DNA of 64,000 nt from Clostridium sp. 'deep sea' (GTDB lineage: Bacteria; Bacillota; UBA994; PWPR01). Made by a program: the position numbers and the translations under genes. Where the stretch lies: contig NZ_CP063353.1 of the NCBI RefSeq assembly GCF_014931565.1, positions 2,480,001 through 2,544,000 on the forward strand, in the 5' to 3' direction. Below the pieces are notes generated by a model. The model searched no databases and had not been told where the DNA came from. It saw only the letters and a program-made list of their open reading frames with translations. This document shows positions 3,892-29,573 of this stretch, piece after piece. The stretch's first letter is position 1; each line of letters opens with the position of its first letter.

Positions 3892-4305
3892 TTACTTAGA
3901 AAAATCTGTTTGTTCATCTTCTGTAGTAGCTTTTATTGACTCATTATTTACAATAATTTTGGGTGGAACTAAAAGCTTTTCTTTATATTCATTTACTTGT
4001 CTTTGTAATGAATTTATAGTTCCAAGCTGTTCTGCTATTTGCTCTTTTATGGTGTCTTTCTCTTTCTCCTGTTCATTAATTCGCTTTTTTAGCTTAATAA
4101 TTTGCCAGTTTTTACTTTGAATTCTAGGTAAAGATAACAATAAGCTAAGTATAACTCCTATGGCTAGACTAAGTAATAAAACTAAAGCTAGCGAACTGGA
4201 AAATTGCCAAACAAAGAAATAAACTGTAACCATAGTAGTATTTTGTACTGCAAAAAATACAGCCAATAAAGCAATTAATAAGGCTATTATTAAAAAAAAC
4301 TGCAT
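3892..4305 (-). CDS. LapA-domain (DUF1049) membrane protein with coiled coil
   Basis: A 137-residue inner-membrane protein. Two hydrophobic segments (about residues 3-22 and 36-60) enclose the short motif FAVQNTTMVTVYFFVWQF, which is characteristic of the LapA/DUF1049 domain. After residue 70 comes a lysine/glutamate-rich stretch predicted to be coiled coil. In Gram-negatives LapA helps lipopolysaccharide assembly; in Firmicutes the role of this domain is unknown and an LPS function should not be transferred. It lies downstream of murC on the same strand, separated by about 50 bp. Confidence 0.8.
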   Translation of the reverse strand: MQFFLIIALLIALLAVFFAVQNTTMVTVYFFVWQFSSSLALVLLLSLAIGVILSLLLSLPRIQSKNWQIIKLKKRINEQEKEKDTIKEQIAEQLGTINSLQRQVNEYKEKLLVPPKIIVNNESIKATTEDEQTDFSK

Positions 4306-21048: not shown

Positions 21049-21783
21049 ATGAAAGCTATAGTATATGGATCCGATGGCGTTATGGGTAATATGCTGGTTG
21101 ACCAAGTAAAAAAATGTAATGATATACAACTGGTAGCTGAAATAACACCATTAAATAATGAGGGAATAAAATGCTTATCTCAATTCGAAGGTGAAGCAGA
21201 CATTGTAATCGATTTTTCGCACCCAAATAATCTGCCAGATATAATTCAATGGGGCTTAAAAACTAAAAAGCCGTTATTGCTGTGTACAACTGGTTATAGT
21301 GAAAGTGATTTAGACCTTATTAAAAAGGCATCCCATAAATGCCCTGTTTTAGTAGCTGGTAACACCTCAATGGGCGTTAATATAGTTAAAATAATACTTG
21401 AAAAAATGGTAAGCCTCTTAGGAGATTGGGATATTGAGCTGCTAGAAAAACATCATAACAGAAAAAAGGATAGTCCTAGTGGAACAGCTAGAGAGCTTTT
21501 GCATATCTTAGAAACCAATAATGTAAGCTTAACCCAACCTATTTATGGTAGGGGGTTAGGGGAGTTCAAGAGAACAAAAGGAGACATTGGTGTTCATTCT
21601 ATTAGGGCAGGTACAATAGCAGGAGAACATAGTGTATTATTTGCGCGTGATGATGAAATAATAGAAATAAAACACCAAGCTTTATCACGTAAAATATTTG
21701 TAAATGGTGCAATTAAAGCAGCCGAGTGGTTGGTGCAACAACAAGCAGGATTTTATACTATGCGTGATATGTTTCAGAGATGA
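21049..21783 (+). CDS. dapB: 4-hydroxy-tetrahydrodipicolinate reductase
   Basis: NAD(P)H-dependent reductase following DapA. It has 244 residues, slightly short for the family. The N-terminal nucleotide fold reads IVYGSDGVMGNM; one expects GxxGxMG, and here the first glycine pair is GSDG. DFSHP, TTGYS, GNTSMGVN and the catalytic EKHHNRKKDSPSGTA follow. The ATG at 21049 has an AAGGAGAAG site. A terminator 60 bp downstream ends the lysA-dapA-dapB unit. Confidence 0.94.
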   Translation: MKAIVYGSDGVMGNMLVDQVKKCNDIQLVAEITPLNNEGIKCLSQFEGEADIVIDFSHPNNLPDIIQWGLKTKKPLLLCTTGYSESDLDLIKKASHKCPVLVAGNTSMGVNIVKIILEKMVSLLGDWDIELLEKHHNRKKDSPSGTARELLHILETNNVSLTQPIYGRGLGEFKRTKGDIGVHSIRAGTIAGEHSVLFARDDEIIEIKHQALSRKIFVNGAIKAAEWLVQQQAGFYTMRDMFQR

Positions 21784-21843
21784 AAATGAGATGAAAGTAA
21801 CACACAGATAACAACGTTTTAGTTGTCACATATCTTAATAATA

Positions 21844-21874
21844 AAAGGAAGCTTATGTTAAGGCTTCCTTTTTA
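21844..21874 (+). terminator. dap operon terminator
   Basis: Stem AAAGGAAGC (21844-21852) / GCTTCCTTT (21863-21871), continuing into a T run. Confidence 0.88.
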
Positions 21875-21934
21875 ACGTAAAAAAATATTTTTATCATAGT
21901 ATTTTTTAAGATATTAGAAAAAAAACACAAAATA

Positions 21935-21961
21935 AAACAAGTTAATATAAAGAACATGTTT
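21935..21961. promoter_or_regulatory. TetR-type operator in front of the BCCT gene
   Basis: A 27-bp imperfect palindrome with arms AAACAAGTT (21935-21943) and AACATGTTT (21953-21961). Of its 27 bases, 24 match the element at 24475-24501. The right arm overlaps the -35 of the predicted promoter. Both copies flank the tetR gene at 23646-24311, so they are its likely operators. Confidence 0.7.
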
Positions 21962-21988
21962 GATAGTTGAATGTGTTTATGCTATGCT
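21959..21988 (+). promoter_or_regulatory. Predicted BCCT gene promoter
   Basis: TTTGAT (21959-21964), 18-bp spacer, TATGCT (21983-21988). It has the same geometry relative to the operator as the grdI promoter. Confidence 0.5.
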
Positions 21989-22023
21989 TATTTTAGGAAA
22001 AACATATGTGTGGGAGGAGAATT

Positions 22024-23592
22024 ATGAGTAAGGAGAAAGCAGGGTTAAAACCAAAAAAAGGTAATAGTGTATTCTTTATTTCAGTAGCTGTAGTTTTTGC
22101 AGTAGTGCTTTGGGGAATTATAGTGCCAAAGAACTTTGAAAAAACAGCTAATCATTTATTGGGTTATATGCTAGATAATTTTGGTTGGTTTTATCTTATA
22201 GCAGTATCAATGTTTATTGTGTTTGCACTTGGGCTGGCGTTTAGCAAATATGGAAAAATAAAGCTTGGGCCAGACGATTCAAAGCCAGAGTATAGTAATA
22301 TTTCATGGTTTTCGATGTTGTTTAGTGCCGGTATGGGTATAGGCCTTATATTCTGGGGTGTAGCAGAGCCGCTAAATCATTTCATTAATCCAGCTGGATT
22401 CTCAGGTGCTGTAGCAGGGTCATCAGCCGCAGCAGATTTTTCAATAAAGATGTCTATTACACATTGGGGATTCCATATTTGGGCTACCCATGGAGTGATG
22501 GCACTTGCACTTGCCTATTTCCAGTTTAGAAAAGGAGCTCCTGGCTTAATAAGTTCAATTTTTGTTCCTTTGATTGGTGAAAAAAGAGTAAGAGGACCAA
22601 TTGGTAAAGCAATTGATATCTTTGCTATTTTTGCAACCGTTACAGGAGTTGCTTGTTCATTAGGAATGGGAACACTTCAAATAAATGGTGGTCTTAATTA
22701 TCTATATGGATTACCAAAAACAACTTTAGTTCAAGTTGTCATAATTGTTTTGGTTACCATTGCATTTATGATATCAGCTATAACTGGCTTAAACAAAGGA
22801 ATCAAATGGTTATCTAATACTAATGTAGCTTTAGCATTTATTATTTTAACTCTAACTATTCTTGTAGGACCTACTGTAAAAATCATTAGTGCCTTTACAA
22901 ATGGCATGGGTATGTATATAAGTGATATTATAAGGACTAGTTTGCATATGGAACCCTTTGGAGATAATTCTTGGATAGGTGGCTGGACCATATTCTATTG
23001 GGCTTGGACTCTGTCTTGGGCACCATTTGTGGGCTCTTTTATTGCCAGAATATCAAGAGGAAGAACAATCAAAGAGTTTGTTTTGGGTGTTATGGTTGGT
23101 CCTGTTTTAGGAAGTGCATTATGGATGGCCACTTATGGTACAGTTGGAATGAACTTAGGTAGTGATATTGCAACTAAAGCAGTTCAAGTAACTGAAACAG
23201 CCTTCTTTGTTGTTATGAGTCATTATCCGTTAGGTGGTATTATTTCCTTTATTACCGTAATACTATTAGTTACGTTTTTTGTTACTTCAGCTGATTCTGC
23301 AACATTTGTACTTGGTATGTTTTCATCTCATGGAAACCTAAACCCATCAACTAAAAAGAAGATAGTTTGGGGAATAATTCAATCGCTATTAGCAGTCGCC
23401 TTGTTGCTTGCAGGTGGGGGTGGAATTAAAACCTTGCAGAATGCTGTTATTGCTGTTGCCTTGCCTTTCACAATTATTTTGGTATTAGGTTGTGTTTCAC
23501 TGTATAAAGTGCTTAAGCAGGATAGCCAAAATGGATCGTCTAAAAAAAGACTTAAAGATAGCTCTTTAAGTACTAAAGCATCAGTATCATAG
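22024..23592 (+). CDS. BCCT-family betaine/choline/carnitine transporter
   Basis: A 522-residue integral membrane transporter with about twelve hydrophobic segments. Diagnostic motifs are GMGIGLIFWGVAEPLNHF (glycine-rich TM3 region), WGFHIWATHG, and the BCCT signature FYWAWTLSWAPFVGSFIARI, whose tryptophans line the substrate site. The gene is placed beside the betaine reductase genes and under the same type of operator, which argues that it imports glycine betaine as an electron acceptor rather than only for osmoprotection. I start at the ATG at 22024 (GGGAGGAG site 5 bases upstream); the extension to 22006 would contain that site. Confidence 0.92.
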   Translation: MSKEKAGLKPKKGNSVFFISVAVVFAVVLWGIIVPKNFEKTANHLLGYMLDNFGWFYLIAVSMFIVFALGLAFSKYGKIKLGPDDSKPEYSNISWFSMLFSAGMGIGLIFWGVAEPLNHFINPAGFSGAVAGSSAAADFSIKMSITHWGFHIWATHGVMALALAYFQFRKGAPGLISSIFVPLIGEKRVRGPIGKAIDIFAIFATVTGVACSLGMGTLQINGGLNYLYGLPKTTLVQVVIIVLVTIAFMISAITGLNKGIKWLSNTNVALAFIILTLTILVGPTVKIISAFTNGMGMYISDIIRTSLHMEPFGDNSWIGGWTIFYWAWTLSWAPFVGSFIARISRGRTIKEFVLGVMVGPVLGSALWMATYGTVGMNLGSDIATKAVQVTETAFFVVMSHYPLGGIISFITVILLVTFFVTSADSATFVLGMFSSHGNLNPSTKKKIVWGIIQSLLAVALLLAGGGGIKTLQNAVIAVALPFTIILVLGCVSLYKVLKQDSQNGSSKKRLKDSSLSTKASVS

Positions 23593-23623
23593 AGTGTAAA
23601 AAATAGTAGCTATTATTAAGCAA

Positions 23624-23661
23624 AAAAAGAGTTCAATACAATTTGTTATTGAACTCTTTTT
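23624..23661. terminator. Bidirectional terminator between BCCT and tetR
   Basis: 15-bp stem AAAAAGAGTTCAATA (23624-23638) / TATTGAACTCTTTTT (23647-23661). It overlaps the tetR stop codon and serves both convergent genes. Confidence 0.88.
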
Positions 23662-24311
23662 AAGTATTTTTTTAAGGTATTTTTTAGATATTTCATAGTA
23701 ACTTGTTCAGCTTCTTCTAAAGAATAATCTATTTGTTTATTTATAATTCTAGAAACCATTCCCTGATAAATTAAAATATGAACATCATTTAATTCAGTTA
23801 GTTCGTTTTGATTTATAAATCCCTCTTCTACACAAGGGGTTAGGATAGTTATGCCTCTTTCAAAAATATCGTGTTTATAAAGCATATTTTTTAGCTTAAT
23901 AGGGGGTTCTCCAAGTTCCTCTGGGTAAATATTATAGAATTCTTTGATAGGGTCTTCTACCGCAAAATGATGTTTTGAGTAAAAGAGAGCATAATAAATT
24001 TTTGGCTTTAAAAATGAATGATGACAGAAACATTCCCAAATTTTTATATATCTTTCTAATGAGTTTTTGGCACTATCAATATACTTAGGTAAATTATATG
24101 TATAGTCCTTAATGAATTTCATAGCAGCCAAAAAGGTTAAGTGTTCTAAATTTTCAAAATAATTGTATAGTGTTGAACTATTATATCCTGCGATATCGGC
24201 AACTTTTCTAACTGTAATTGCGTCAATTCCTTCATCTTTAATAATTTTTGCTGCTGCATTTATAAAATACGACTTTCTTATATTTCTTCGCATGTCTTTT
24301 TTATTGTTCAT
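23646..24311 (-). CDS. TetR-family regulator of the betaine genes
   Basis: A 221-residue TetR-type repressor. The N-terminal helix-turn-helix (AAKIIKDEGIDAITVRKVADIAGYNSSTLYNYF, written here as positions 18-50) is a clear TetR DNA-binding domain. The C-terminal ligand-binding part has no recognisable sequence match. It sits between the convergent transporter gene and the divergent grdI gene, and near-identical 27-bp inverted repeats stand before each of those genes. Repression relieved by betaine or a related compound is the natural inference. ATG at 24311 with a GGTGAT site; its own start is about 160 bp from the operator. Confidence 0.85.
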   Translation of the reverse strand: MNNKKDMRRNIRKSYFINAAAKIIKDEGIDAITVRKVADIAGYNSSTLYNYFENLEHLTFLAAMKFIKDYTYNLPKYIDSAKNSLERYIKIWECFCHHSFLKPKIYYALFYSKHHFAVEDPIKEFYNIYPEELGEPPIKLKNMLYKHDIFERGITILTPCVEEGFINQNELTELNDVHILIYQGMVSRIINKQIDYSLEEAEQVTMKYLKNTLKKYLKRVQ

Positions 24312-24474
24312 ATTTTATCACCAACTTAATAATTAGAGCTAATTTGCTTTGATTAATGACTTTCATTAAATTTATTTATAAGACTAAATTTTATCTACTA
24401 TAAACAACTTAGGTAACAAAATACAGCCATTAACATTAAATGTATCTTATCATACCTATAAAATATTATCAATT

Positions 24475-24501
24475 AAACAAGTTATTAAATAGAACATGTT
24501 T
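24475..24501. promoter_or_regulatory. TetR-type operator in front of grdI
   Basis: Arms AAACAAGTT (24475-24483) and AACATGTTT (24493-24501), 9-bp spacer; second copy of the element at 21935. It overlaps the -35 of the grdI promoter. Confidence 0.7.
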
Positions 24502-24528
24502 ACAATAAGAACGCGTTTGTGATATTAT
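24499..24528 (+). promoter_or_regulatory. Predicted grdI promoter
   Basis: TTTACA (24499-24504), 18-bp spacer, TATTAT (24523-24528). The -35 shares bases with the right operator arm, so repressor binding should block polymerase. Confidence 0.55.
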
Positions 24529-24597
24529 AATTTATAAGATTATTGATAAATTAAATTAAGTGTTAAATAAGCTTAATAAAGAAAGGGTGGAAACAAA

Positions 24598-25923
24598 ATG
24601 AAACTAGAATTTGGAAATTTTTATGTTAAAGATGTTCGTTTTGGTAATCATACCTCTTATAAGGAGGGCACTTTAACAATAAATAAAGAAGAAGCTTTAA
24701 AAATTGTTAGAGAAGATGAGCATATCACCGAAGCCGATTTAGTAATAGCTAAACCAGGCGATGAGGTGAGAATTATTCCTGTTAAAGATGCTTTTGAGCC
24801 AAGGTATAGAGTTGATGGAAATACTTTATATCCAGGTATAACTGGTGAAGTGTCTCCAGTAGGAAACGGAAGAGTTAATGCACTAAAAAATATCAGTGTA
24901 CTATCTGTTGGAAAACACTGGGGAGGGTTTCAAGACGGCTTAATTGATATGTGTGGTGAAGGAGCTAAACATACCTATTATTCTCAGCTAATTAATATTT
25001 GTTTAGTAGCTGATACTGATGAAGAGCATGAAAGATATGAACAGCAAAAGCAAAATATTGCAATTAATAAAGCAGCGATGAGGCTTTCTGAATATCTAGG
25101 AAGTTGTACAAAAGATTTAGCAGCTGAAGAGGTAGAAAGCTTTGAACTAAAGCCAATGACAAAACGCACAAAAGAAGAAAATGAACTACCCTCAGTAGTT
25201 GTAGTTTTACTTCCTCAATCCCAGCTAGACCAAGCAGGGTTTAATGAGCGGGTATATGGATGGGATACTAAAAAGATGTTACCAACATTAATGCATCCTA
25301 ATGAAATTTTAGATAGTGCCATGATTTCCGGTAGCTTTACACCGAGCTCTTCAAAGTGGGCAACATATGATATTCAAAACTTTCCAGTTATTAAAAGGGT
25401 GTATAAAGAGCACGGTAAAACTCTAAACTTTTTAGGTGTAATTGTATCAAATCTACAGATTGTCTTAGAAGAAAAAGAAAGATCTGCATTATATGTTAAA
25501 CAAATAGCTCAATCAATAGGAGCAGAGGGTGCTATTATTGTTCAAGCTGGTTATGGTAATTGTGATGCAGACTTAATAGGTACTATTGTTACTTTAGAAG
25601 ATGTAGGTATAAAAACTGCTGGAATAGCAACAGAGAGTCCTGGTAGAGATGGAGTATCACAGCCAAAAGTAACACTTGATGAAAAGGCAGATGCTATAGT
25701 TACCACTGGTAATGTATCAGAGTTAATAGAATTACCACCAATGAAAACTGTAATTGGTGAGCTAGAGTCTTTAGGAAGAGATGGATTTGGTGGAGGCTGG
25801 GCTGATGATGAAAAACTAGGCCCATCGGTTAGAGAAGATGGTTCAATAATTATGGAAGAAAACTCAATGTTCTGTGGTGATCAGATTGTAGGATGGTCTC
25901 CAAAAATAATAAAGGAATATTAA
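24598..25923 (+). CDS. grdI: Betaine-reductase-type component B, GrdE/GrdI-family subunit
   Basis: A 441-residue protein of the GrdE/GrdG/GrdI family, the non-selenoprotein part of substrate-specific component B in glycine, sarcosine and betaine reductases. The glycine-specific GrdE is a proprotein cleaved at a cysteine to give a pyruvoyl-type carbonyl. In the matching segment here (SGSFTPSSSKW, residues 244-254) no cysteine is present, which suggests an unprocessed subunit. Betaine cannot form a Schiff base, and the BCCT transporter lies next door, so I assign betaine (GrdI). ATG with AAAGGGTGG site. It is followed 12 bp later by grdH. Components A and C are not in the window. Confidence 0.82.
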   Translation: MKLEFGNFYVKDVRFGNHTSYKEGTLTINKEEALKIVREDEHITEADLVIAKPGDEVRIIPVKDAFEPRYRVDGNTLYPGITGEVSPVGNGRVNALKNISVLSVGKHWGGFQDGLIDMCGEGAKHTYYSQLINICLVADTDEEHERYEQQKQNIAINKAAMRLSEYLGSCTKDLAAEEVESFELKPMTKRTKEENELPSVVVVLLPQSQLDQAGFNERVYGWDTKKMLPTLMHPNEILDSAMISGSFTPSSSKWATYDIQNFPVIKRVYKEHGKTLNFLGVIVSNLQIVLEEKERSALYVKQIAQSIGAEGAIIVQAGYGNCDADLIGTIVTLEDVGIKTAGIATESPGRDGVSQPKVTLDEKADAIVTTGNVSELIELPPMKTVIGELESLGRDGFGGGWADDEKLGPSVREDGSIIMEENSMFCGDQIVGWSPKIIKEY

Positions 25924-25935
25924 GGAGGTGCAAAG

Positions 25936-27252
25936 ATGAAAAAAGCAATTTTGTATATAAATCAATTTTTTGCAGGTATTGGTGGTGAAGATAAGGCTGA
26001 TTATGCCCCAGAGATAAGAGAAGGCTTGGTTGGGCCTGCCTTAGCATTAAACAAGCAACTTGGTGATGAGGTAGAGATTACCCATACAGTTATCTGTGGT
26101 GATAACTTTATGGGTTCAAAAACCGAACAAGCAGTTGAGATAATTTTAGGATTTTTACAAGATAAAGAATTTGATATTTTCTTTGCAGGTCCTGCATTTA
26201 GAGCTGGTAGATATGGCACTGCATGTGGTCATATTTGTAAAGCTGTAAAAGAAAACTTTAACATACCAGTAATTACCTCTATGAATGAAGAAAACCCTGG
26301 TGTAGAGATGTTCCGCAAAGATATCTATATTTTTAAAGGTGGAGCTAGCGCTGCAGGTATGAGAAAAAATGCCAAAGCAATGACTAGTTTTGGGCTTAAA
26401 ATACTTAATGGTGAAGAGCTTTTGCCTGCTGAAGAAGAGGGATATTACAGCAGAGGTATAAGGCATCAAGTAGTATTAGATCCACCTGTAATGGCAGCTG
26501 ATAGGGTTGTTGATATGTTTATAAAGAAAATCTATCAGCAGCCATTTAAAACTGAATTGCCAATGCCTAAACTAGACAGAGTTCCAGTAGCTACACCAAT
26601 TAAAGACTTAAGTAAAGCAACTATAGCGTTAGTTACATCAGGTGGTATTGTACCAGTATCTAACCCAGATAGAATTCAATCGGCCTCAGCAACTAGATGG
26701 GGAAGATATAATATTGAGCACATGGATCGGTTAGAATCGGGGGTATTTAAAACAATTCACGCAGGTTTTGATCCTACAGCAGCCAATGCAGACCCAAATA
26801 TTATTATGCCTGTTGATGTTATGAAGCATTATGAAAAAGAAGGAATAATTGGTAAATTGCACGAGTATTACTATGCTACAGTAGGAACAGGTACAACACA
26901 AGCAGAGGCAGCTAGAATGGGTAAAGAAATGCTAGAGTACTTAAAAGAAGCAGAAGTAGATGGAGTTATTTTAGTATCTACTTGAGGCACCTGTACACGT
27001 TGCGGTGCAACGATTGTAAAAGAAATTGAAAGAGCTGGAATACCAGCGGTTCAGATGGCAAATATAATACCTGTTTCAAAAACAGTAGGTGTAAATAAAA
27101 TGGTATCAACCCTTTCTATACCTTATCCGCTGGGTGATCCTAATACAACAAAAGAAGAACAATGGAAAGTAAGATATCATAGAGTAGGTGTAGCGTTAGA
27201 GGCTTTGACTACAGATATTAATGAGCAAACTTTGTTTAAAGTTAAATTTTAG
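25936..27252 (+). CDS. grdH: Betaine-reductase selenoprotein component B (UGA = selenocysteine)
   Basis: Selenoprotein subunit of the GrdB/GrdF/GrdH family, 438 residues if the in-frame TGA at 26983-26985 is read as selenocysteine (residue 350). The context STUGTCTRCG gives the UxxCxxC redox motif of the family, and the downstream frame continues as family sequence to a normal stop. A hairpin GCACC / GGTGC (26987-27008) starts one base after the TGA, where a bacterial SECIS is expected. The ATG has an AGGAGGTG site. With GrdI it would bind betaine and transfer the carboxymethyl group to the GrdA selenocysteine. Automatic annotation would split it into a 349-residue protein and a downstream fragment beginning at 27055. 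Confidence 0.9.
26986..27010 (+). promoter_or_regulatory. Candidate bacterial SECIS element in grdH
   Basis: 5-bp stem GCACC (26987-26991) / GGTGC (27004-27008) with a 12-base loop, directly after the Sec UGA. Bacterial SECIS elements sit immediately 3' of the UGA inside the coding sequence. Confidence 0.6.
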
Positions 27253-27349
27253 CTTCAAAAATAAAATTTATTAATAAAATATATAAAAAATAATTTAATA
27301 TTAGAGCGTATGTTACTCCTATATTAATAATAAAAACTGGATAACATTT

Positions 27350-27390
27350 AACAGATGATTTCTGTATTTTACAGAAGTCATCTGTTTTTA
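27350..27390 (+). terminator. grdIH terminator
   Basis: Long stem AACAGATGA-TTTCTGT / ACAGAA-TCATCTGTT (27350-27387) with an ATTTT loop and following T run. Confidence 0.9.
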
Positions 27391-27411
27391 AACTAAGGAT
27401 ATCTTAAGTAG

Positions 27412-27813
27412 CTATTCTTTAAAAATTTTAACTCTAAAATTACCGTTGCCTTCATAAATTACAACAAAGTTTTCTCTTAAATATTTTATATTATATGTTT
27501 TTAGCTCTGTACAATCTTTATTAGTTATATTACTTAAAAAGCGGTACTGATTTTTTTTGTGCTCAGTCACTCCCCATGGTTCTAGGTATAGTTTATCGCT
27601 ATTTTTTAGTAGCCAAAAGTCAGTGTCTTCTACAATATTTAGCCTATTTAAGGCCTCTTCAAGTTCTTGTTCTACGTTAAAGGCTATTGTGTTTAAGGCC
27701 TCTTGACGAGAATCATATATTTTTTGTAGGCAATAGGGTACTATCAAGCTTATTAGTAAAAAAGTTAATGCTCCAATTATAACTAACTTAAAAAATGGTT
27801 TTATATGTTTCAT
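27412..27813 (-). CDS. Hypothetical membrane-anchored protein
   Basis: A 133-residue protein with a basic N-terminus and one transmembrane helix (about residues 9-29), followed by an extracytoplasmic part rich in charged residues (EVEQELEEALNRL-like helix, then beta-rich sequence). No family recognised. The ATG at 27813 has an AGGAGGGT site, a strong argument that the gene is real. It stands alone between two terminators. Confidence 0.65.
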   Translation of the reverse strand: MKHIKPFFKLVIIGALTFLLISLIVPYCLQKIYDSRQEALNTIAFNVEQELEEALNRLNIVEDTDFWLLKNSDKLYLEPWGVTEHKKNQYRFLSNITNKDCTELKTYNIKYLRENFVVIYEGNGNFRVKIFKE

Positions 27814-27870
27814 AAATACCCTCCTTTATAAAAAGATTAGCCAACATGTATAATTATTATTCAAAAAAAT

Positions 27871-27895
27871 AAAACACCTTTAAGGTGTTTTTCTA
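27871..27895. terminator. Bidirectional hairpin terminator
   Basis: 10-bp stem AAAACACCTT / AAGGTGTTTT (27871-27880, 27882-27891). T-rich on both strands; serves the minus-strand ymaF-like gene. Confidence 0.8.
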
Positions 27896-27940
27896 AAATT
27901 GCTTTGTTATAAATTTTAGTTATAGATACCTATACTAAAG

Positions 27941-28246
27941 CTAGCAGCAATCAGGACGATTAGGAGCTGCTGTTGTTAGTGTTCTAAAGTAATGACAATG
28001 TCCATCTTTAAAAGAGGTAACACATCTAATTTCATGAATGTGCTTTCTTCCCTTAACAATCTCTCTGCAAGTACAACCACATATAGAGTGAACATGTCCG
28101 AATACATAAGATGTACCAGTAGCTATTGGATGCTCATGACCATAACATACTGGTCTAACTGTACCTGTTGTGGCAGATACAGCATGGCGATGTCCAGCAA
28201 CAAAACTGGTAACATTATTAAATCTATGCGTATGACAACACCACAT
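27941..28246 (-). CDS. YmaF-family His/Cys-rich protein
   Basis: A 101-residue YmaF-family protein with repeated H-x-H units spaced by about 15-17 residues (HTHRF, GHRHAV, GHEHPI, GHVHSI, HIHEI, GHCHYF) and several cysteine pairs (WCC, CGCTC, terminal CC). This layout suggests metal binding or a repetitive coat-like fold; the family has no proven function. I start at the ATG at 28246 because a GAGGAGGGTG site stands just upstream. The in-frame extension to 28318 has no binding site. Next to it, divergently, is the PLP lyase gene. Confidence 0.75.
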   Translation of the reverse strand: MWCCHTHRFNNVTSFVAGHRHAVSATTGTVRPVCYGHEHPIATGTSYVFGHVHSICGCTCREIVKGRKHIHEIRCVTSFKDGHCHYFRTLTTAAPNRPDCC

Positions 28247-28415
28247 ATTATCACCCTCCTCATAATCATAATATGAAACATTAGGACAGGCGGTACTTGT
28301 TTCATTAAATTTCTCCATTTATTTTTTATTACAATATTTTTAAACTTCTAATTAAGTGCAGGGTATTAATTTAATTTGTAGAACTTTTAATCACTACTAA
28401 CAGGAGAGTTATATT

Positions 28416-29573
28416 ATGAAAAAAAATAATGATATGTTTATGGAAACAATGTTAGCTCATTATGGTGAAGACAAATCAATGTATCATGGTTCTGTAATCC
28501 CACCAATATTTCAAACCTCATTATTCACATTTGAAAATATGGAGGCAATATCTAATGCCTTTAACACCAAAGGTAGTTATTTATACACTAGAGGATTAAA
28601 CCCAACTGTAGAAGTAGCAGAAAAGAAAATTGCCAAGCTAGAGTGTGGTGAGAGAGCTAAATTATTTTCCTCTGGTATGGGAGCAATTTCTGCAAGTATA
28701 TTAAACTTTGTTAAAACAGGTGACCATATAGTTGCGCTAAAAACAGTATATGGACCAACTATTAATTTTTTCTCTAAGTACTTAGCTAATAAATTTAATA
28801 TTAAAACAACCTATGTTGAGGCAACTACAGATAATGTAATAGATGCAATTAAAGATAATACAACCCTTATATATTTAGAAAGTCCTACAAGTTTAGTGTT
28901 TGAAGTTTTAGATTTAAAAAAAATTGCAGCTGTTGCTAAAAAGCGTGGAATAGGAACTGTTATAGATAATACTTGGGCAACACCACTTTACCAAAATCCT
29001 TTAACAATGGGTATTGATGTTGTGGTACATTCAGCTAGTAAATATTTGTCGGGTCATAGTGATGTTGTTGCTGGAGTTGCTGTTGCTAGTGAGGAAATAA
29101 TTCAATCAATATTTGAAGTTGAACATGCCCTGCTAGGAGCTAAAATTGCCCCTATAGAGGCTTGGTTAATACTACGAGGACTTAGAACCTTACCTGTAAG
29201 AATGAAGCATCATAGCGAGAGTGCTTTAAAAATTGCATTGTATTTAGAAAAACATCCAAAGATTAAAAAAGTCAATCACCCGGGCTTAAAATCACACCCT
29301 AACTATGAGTTAGCTAAACAACAATTAAGTGGCTATAGCGGATTATTTAGCTTTGTAATTGACTCTGACCTACAAGGAACAAGAAGGTTTGTAGATAATC
29401 TTCAATTTTTTAATATTGGAGTAAGCTGGGGTGGATTTGAGAGCCTTGCGTTAAACCTTGCTTACGATGGAAAAAATAAAAATGTGGAAACCGGATTGGT
29501 AAGGGTATCTATAGGACTTGAAAATACTAATGACTTACTAGCAGATATAGAACAGGCACTTAAACTTGTTTAA
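28416..29573 (+). CDS. Cys/Met metabolism PLP-dependent enzyme (methionine gamma-lyase-like)
   Basis: A 385-residue fold-type I PLP enzyme of the trans-sulfuration family. The PLP lysine is in VVHSASKYLSGHSDVVAG, and YTRGLNPTVEVAE, FSSGMGAISAS, DNTWATPLYQNP and the C-terminal VRVSIGLE are classic. Family members include methionine gamma-lyase, cystathionine gamma-lyase/beta-lyase and O-acetylhomoserine sulfhydrylase; these cannot be separated safely by eye. Isolated context without other sulfur genes favours a catabolic gamma-lyase. ATG with a CAGGAGAG site. Confidence 0.88.
   Translation: MKKNNDMFMETMLAHYGEDKSMYHGSVIPPIFQTSLFTFENMEAISNAFNTKGSYLYTRGLNPTVEVAEKKIAKLECGERAKLFSSGMGAISASILNFVKTGDHIVALKTVYGPTINFFSKYLANKFNIKTTYVEATTDNVIDAIKDNTTLIYLESPTSLVFEVLDLKKIAAVAKKRGIGTVIDNTWATPLYQNPLTMGIDVVVHSASKYLSGHSDVVAGVAVASEEIIQSIFEVEHALLGAKIAPIEAWLILRGLRTLPVRMKHHSESALKIALYLEKHPKIKKVNHPGLKSHPNYELAKQQLSGYSGLFSFVIDSDLQGTRRFVDNLQFFNIGVSWGGFESLALNLAYDGKNKNVETGLVRVSIGLENTNDLLADIEQALKLV

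Follow-up and report, generated by a model that had tools for sequence, protein, structure and literature searches.

The module and its promoter elements

The window analyzed here is a stretch of 64,000 nucleotides from Clostridium sp. 'deep sea' (NZ_CP063353.1, positions 2,480,001 to 2,544,000), and coordinates without further indication refer to this stretch. It harbors genes for a BCCT transporter, a TetR regulator, GrdI and GrdH, whose positions and families agree with those given in the first-pass annotation of this DNA. The features of the module are the following:

21935-21978, forward strand: predicted operator 1, transporter promoter; box 1 AAACAAGTTA (21935-21944), box 2 GAACATGTTT (21952-21961) and box 3 GAATGTGTTT (21969-21978), with a 17-bp period
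21959-21988, forward strand: putative transporter promoter, TTTGAT-18-TATGCT or better TTGATA-17-TATGCT (consensus match only)
22024-23592, forward strand: BCCT-family transporter (PF02028, 610 bits; NF047988, 649.9 against a cut-off of 650)
23624-23661, no strand assigned: terminator with a 15-bp perfect stem, where the transporter and tetR genes converge
23646-24311, reverse strand: TetR-family regulator, GrdR-like, 221 aa (PF00440; homologues adjoin grdIH; TetR fold in an AlphaFold model)
24475-24518, forward strand: predicted operator 2, between the divergent tetR and grdI genes; box 1 AAACAAGTTA (24475-24484), box 2 GAACATGTTT (24492-24501) and box 3 GAACGCGTTT (24509-24518)
24499-24528, forward strand: putative grdI promoter, TTTACA-18-TATTAT (consensus match only)
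24598-25923, forward strand: GrdI, component B subunit of a betaine-type reductase (PF09338, 563 bits)
25936-27252, forward strand: GrdH, selenoprotein B subunit (NF040795, 818.9 bits against a cut-off of 775)
26986-27023, forward strand: SECIS_4 selenocysteine insertion element, directly 3' of the UGA (57.9 bits, gathering threshold 38)

GrdH has the features expected of component B of betaine reductase: it scores above the NF040795 cut-off and carries an in-frame UGA (Sec) at 26983-26985, served by the SECIS element, within a UxxCxxC motif (UGTCTRC in the sequence).

Two 27-bp elements, AAACAAGTTAATATAAAGAACATGTTT (21935-21961) and AAACAAGTTATTAAATAGAACATGTTT (24475-24501), stand ahead of the transporter gene and of grdI, and share 24 of 27 bases, just as had been reported. 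A pattern search of the 3,831,732-bp genome with AAACAWGTT-N9-AACWTGTTT returned, at zero mismatches, only these two copies at the two promoters of the module; none of the five best imperfect matches in the genome (2 mismatches) lies near grd genes, and the three that were inspected are found inside ORFs or at ORF 3' ends. When 0 to 3 mismatches were allowed, the window contained four matches (0.65 expected; none of the dinucleotide shuffles reached four). The two extra imperfect matches correspond to a third box located exactly 17 bp downstream at both promoters, which had been overlooked.

Both promoters share a common register, in which the right arm of the element lies over the -35 and the -10 hexamer is at offset +48. 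The earlier description of an 18-bp spacer at both holds, although the transporter promoter is better read with the 17-bp spacer listed above; matches to the promoter consensus at these operators are no more frequent than expected by chance.

A 14-bp box family in related loci

A scan of genome contigs provided 80 named GrdI loci, with further loci added from whole-genome searches; their usual gene order is tetR< grdI> grdH> BCCT>. A palindromic EM motif search was carried out on the 230 bp upstream of 82 grdI genes (and of the BCCT gene of the window), distributed in random halves; the halves had not converged in a first run with 400-bp regions, whereas they did with 230 bp. The 14-bp palindrome ATAATCATGATTAT was recovered de novo and independently in both halves, and boxes of at least 8 bits were present in 31/41 and 27/41 of the held-out regions, where dinucleotide shuffles would give 1.5 and 2.1 (58 of 82 in total versus 3.6). 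The family consensus is ATAAWCATGWTTAT, with the variants ATAAACATGTTTAT and, in Lachnospiraceae-type loci, ATAAGCGCGCTTAT. Boxes occur at 4.8 per kb upstream of grdI versus 0.05 per kb elsewhere in the same loci (~90-fold), and the distance between them peaks at exactly 17 bp (41 pairs), followed by 34 bp (8 pairs). Downstream of a BCCT gene of Marinisporobacter (locus L092, 11359-11423) there are four consecutive boxes with the 17-bp period.

None of the six boxes of the window reaches 5.5 bits with the family matrix. Judging from their spacing, their A-type right halves and their mutual similarity, we regard them as divergent members of the family. The 27-bp inverted repeat of the first-pass annotation does exist, but it would be better read as the first two boxes of a 17-bp-phased set of three; these two resemble one long repeat because their inner halves are degenerate in the window. 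That one TetR dimer instead binds the whole element as a single inverted repeat seems improbable to us, even though the best-conserved segments within the window are its outer arms, AAACAAGTT and AACATGTTT. The half-site centres would be 18 bp apart, whereas a TetR dimer reads half-sites with 5 bp between them (PMC2723105), a spacing that fits one 14-bp box and not the two arms; moreover, in the relatives every arm forms a full 14-bp palindrome by itself, and lone boxes are found there along with pairs and runs of three or four on the 17-bp period.

Boxes and regulator genes go together. A TetR gene upstream of grdI and a box were both present in 52 loci, the TetR gene only in 4, the box only in 4 and neither in 20 (Fisher p 2e-11, a value that overstates independence given the shared ancestry of the loci). 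The "neither" class includes the Halanaerobiales, whose boxes lie some 0.6 kb ahead of grdI and whose TetR gene follows the BCCT gene. Modules of Sporomusa, Brachyspira and Metaclostridioides which have no TetR have no boxes either, while loci with TetR only or TetR-BCCT, and no grdIH, do carry them. In five other genomes boxes are placed ahead of grdA-grdI-grdH-BCCT and/or trxB-trxA-grdC-(grdD) operons. Among records found afterwards, Acetoanaerobium noterae (TetR and box) fits this co-occurrence, and two Enterococcus megaplasmid modules have neither TetR nor box upstream of grdI. These megaplasmids (L215 and L217) encode a full cluster, trxB-trxA-grdA-grdC-grdD-grdI-grdH-BCCT, in which no TetR was found; in the annotated E. 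gilvus megaplasmid module a GntR-type gene follows the BCCT gene.

The type of box also varies with the regulator. At position 5 of the box, loci carry T, A or G, and across the 57 loci of T or A type a GrdR residue 34 other than I, or a V/I at residue 45, was seen in 15/17 A-type versus 1/40 T-type regulators, according to a rule chosen post hoc, once the data had been seen; all G-type regulators (9/9) have N45. Window GrdR has V34 and is paired with A-type boxes, the type being a manual assignment based on its three boxes. In the alignment (offset 7), residues 34 and 45 correspond to T27 and Q38 of TetR, whose equivalents were both located at the DNA interface in a study of AmtR, the Gln38 equivalent contacting a base (PMC2723105). 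After correction for kinship about 3 independent pairs were in favor and 0 against (p 0.25, with few pairs and low power), and extra genomes from one class, all with a single regulator type, added little to this test. Lachnospiraceae-type regulators with a GFHNST recognition helix (loci L105, L107, L109, L112, L113, L121, L124, L126 and L128) pair with ATAAGCGCGCTTAT-like boxes that are often ~41 bp apart and not 17.

These data bear on whether the boxes could be bound by another conserved regulator, or be promoter elements, with the TetR gene close by only incidentally. The boxes do overlap promoter elements, and the binding of GrdR is itself a prediction; nevertheless, the joint presence of box and TetR gene, the lack of boxes in modules without TetR, the shift of box type with the DNA-contact residues of TetR, and the boxes kept at TetR loci devoid of grdIH make this very unlikely.

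The regulator and its predicted circuit

The helix-turn-helix of the window regulator is recognized by the TetR_N profile (PF00440, 34.6 bits against a cut-off of 24), and its AlphaFold model (pLDDT 92.4) displays an all-helical TetR fold over the full length. Its assignment to GrdR comes from homologues whose genes adjoin grdI-grdH and are accompanied by conserved upstream boxes, the boxes of the window itself being divergent, and the conserved ligand-domain residues of the family (W92, F95, F110, M143 and R152) are all present. Structural comparison with Foldseek and VIA-align recovered the general TetR fold and no telling ligand match; the best VIA-align hit was EthR2 (Z 14.0, rmsd 3.3, 180 residues aligned), with choline- and dye-binding TetR proteins appearing only as ties. 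An identity as BetI was rejected (TIGR03384, 33.5 bits against a cut-off of 201.3). BetI, the choline-responsive TetR repressor of the bet genes, is likewise a locally encoded member of the family linked to quaternary-amine metabolism; however, the similarity to it is weak and N-terminal (those 33.5 bits), the ligand domains have no sequence similarity, and the predicted target of GrdR is reduction whereas that of BetI is choline oxidation. With the TetR/tetO pair, GrdR and its box share a helix-turn-helix that aligns at a constant 7-residue offset and an operator box whose length is similar and whose core is TCA..TGA-like; unlike tetO, the GrdR boxes are in tandem on a 17-bp period, and the ligand domains differ as well.

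The claim that regulator and operator were undescribed stands for the operator and not for the regulator. Its gene is named grdR in the grdRIH cluster of C. sporogenes (PMC4517662); another report calls grdR of C. ljungdahlii a "known repressor" (PMC13241827), and a tetR gene has been drawn with grdHI (PMC6716910). We found no operator, binding assay or box described for GrdR in the literature available without subscription. The grdR-grdI-grdH clusters of C. sporogenes, Peptoclostridium (Eubacterium) acidaminophilum and C. ljungdahlii resemble the window in that the regulator gene adjoins grdIH. In our set, C. ljungdahlii is represented by locus L075, with a 43% identical TetR, grdI, grdH, a BCCT gene and three 17-bp-phased boxes. 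The window differs from the grdR-grdI-grdH cluster in that the transporter gene is apart from grdIH, on the far side of tetR, and is preceded by an operator copy of its own.

Taken as a whole, we consider that the locus encodes a Stickland-type reductase module that is specific to its substrate and controlled by a local TetR repressor, GrdR, acting at 17-bp-phased boxes, with a probability of roughly 0.85. The comparisons give the TetR-box mechanism good support; elements, boxes, spacing, co-occurrence and insertion are observed, while binding, repression and inducer are predictions. GrdR dimers would bind the 14-bp pseudo-palindromic boxes, 17 bp apart and three per promoter in the window, so that bound protein would cover the -35 and the spacer and keep RNA polymerase from transcribing both the transporter gene and grdI-grdH. 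For box 1, positioned upstream of the -35, such a role is less certain. The grdI operator is also upstream of tetR, making autoregulation of tetR probable. The substrate of the module, or a close relative of it, would bind GrdR and release it from DNA, switching on import and the substrate-specific GrdI-GrdH together; these would feed the common GrdA/GrdCD/TrxAB core, encoded elsewhere under a glycine riboswitch. The earlier proposal of one repressor switching import and reduction thus gains comparative support from the co-occurrence, the boxes at regulon genes of relatives and the covariation of recognition residues, while its betaine label is doubtful.

Genomic setting and the substrate question

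As had been noted, GrdA and GrdCD are absent from the module; they are encoded, as is TrxAB, at 2.716-2.724 Mb, where GrdX-TrxB-TrxA-GrdE-GrdA-GrdB-GrdC-GrdD form one operon behind a glycine riboswitch. Further copies of the element had been expected near grdA/grdCD or trxAB, but the core operon of this genome has no convincing box, and the expectation is borne out only in relatives, ahead of grdA and of trxB-trxA-grdC. A perfect 12-bp box occurs at the end of coaX (L044, 3851-3864), just upstream of the core glycine riboswitch (3895-4069). As a candidate operator of the core operon, this 12/12 match (TAAACACGTTTA, L044:3852-3863) was discounted, since it extends over the end of coaX and the core operon of a congener (L168) lacks it.

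A second betaine module is located at 1.437-1.442 Mb, with TetR divergent from grdI-grdH-BCCT and proteins 42-72% identical to those of the window (TetR 42%). It is canonical, its BCCT (664 against 650) and GrdH (836) both passing the betaine cut-offs. A box, TTAAACGTGTTTAT, is present in this module (L045, G000:C1:1430000-1448000). Cross-talk between window GrdR and the TetR of the second module is possible. The congener (G332, assembly ~94% complete) has, among strong matches, the second module only.

In the congener (L213, 7848-10953) and a more distantly related member of the family (L214, 7831-9751), dapB and a Cys/Met-metabolism gene lie tail-to-tail, no other gene intervening. In the window (21783-28416) the module is inserted between these two genes, and orf133-ymaF-CGS is inverted with respect to the two relatives; since the site is empty in both and the window carries the inversion, the module arrived or was moved here with rearrangement. 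Its GC content is ordinary, and no mobile-element genes were found at its immediate flanks among the ORFs and families inspected. Related modules are carried by Enterococcus megaplasmids and by a further large replicon whose record lists it as a plasmid. The picture of a mobile-looking module plugged into a shared core therefore stands as regards the insertion and the separate core, but no mobile-element gene was found at its edges.

The betaine label is where the module itself gives conflicting signals. GrdH passes the betaine cut-off, but the transporter lacks two residues linked to quaternary ammonium compounds, GrdI is the oddest of its family and a canonical module exists elsewhere. The transporter is a full-length homologue of BetP and TmaT (E about 1e-105 and 8e-111) and differs from them at two positions of the aromatic box, with H156 and T329 in place of Tyr and Trp; other grd-linked BCCTs keep the Tyr in 57/57 and the Trp in 55/57 cases. 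In TmaT, Tyr154 and Trp326, together with Trp146 and Trp329, are reported to be conserved in quaternary ammonium carriers alone (PMC11708041), and two of these four residues are replaced in the window. The glycine-betaine BCCT model (NF047988) is also missed, marginally, at 649.9 against 650. Window GrdI has 20 substitutions at columns conserved in at least 97%, the most among 84 sequences (the next has 8), versus only 2 in GrdH. End branches are long for all four module proteins, and that of GrdI (0.66 against a family median of 0.079) is the most extreme relative to the median. No relative of GrdI with a solved structure was found by sequence.

It is conceivable, though we would not bet on it, that the circuit is the same while the module no longer serves glycine betaine, the transporter and GrdI having diverged toward another X-CH2-COO- compound and the 1.44-Mb module handling betaine. 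The replacement of a nearly universal Tyr/Trp pair, the contrast between GrdI and GrdH in conserved-column substitutions, the long branches and the canonical scores of the second module point in this direction. Against it, GrdH is above the betaine_GrdH cut-off (818.9 versus 775), the transporter misses its own by 0.1 bit only and retains two of the four quaternary-ammonium residues, GrdR keeps its family ligand-domain residues, and the search turned up no close relative sharing these changes. Since the module genes are intact and appear regulated, decay is hardly the first explanation to suggest itself. In its fuller form, held slightly more tentatively still, the idea is that an inserted, fast-evolving GrdR-BCCT-GrdIH set may import and reductively cleave an acetate derivative without the classical trimethylammonium, keeping GrdR-box control and the common selenoprotein core, much as fluoroacetate reductase acts on fluoroacetate; the module would then have changed its fuel.

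Whichever its substrate, the circuit of the main reading is of a known kind; its operator and regulon are newly defined here, and the copy of the module that this genome carries is an unusual one. Betaine reduction is a major anaerobic source of trimethylamine in gut and marine sediments, and its gene control has so far consisted of a named regulator without a described site. Across dozens of anaerobes, the conserved, cross-validated box predicts regulon operons, separate trxB-trxA-grdC operons among them, and the specificity rule from two recognition residues offers a testable handle on the pairing of GrdR and box. Finally, its odd transporter and GrdI single out the window copy as a possible case of a Grd reductase with a new substrate.
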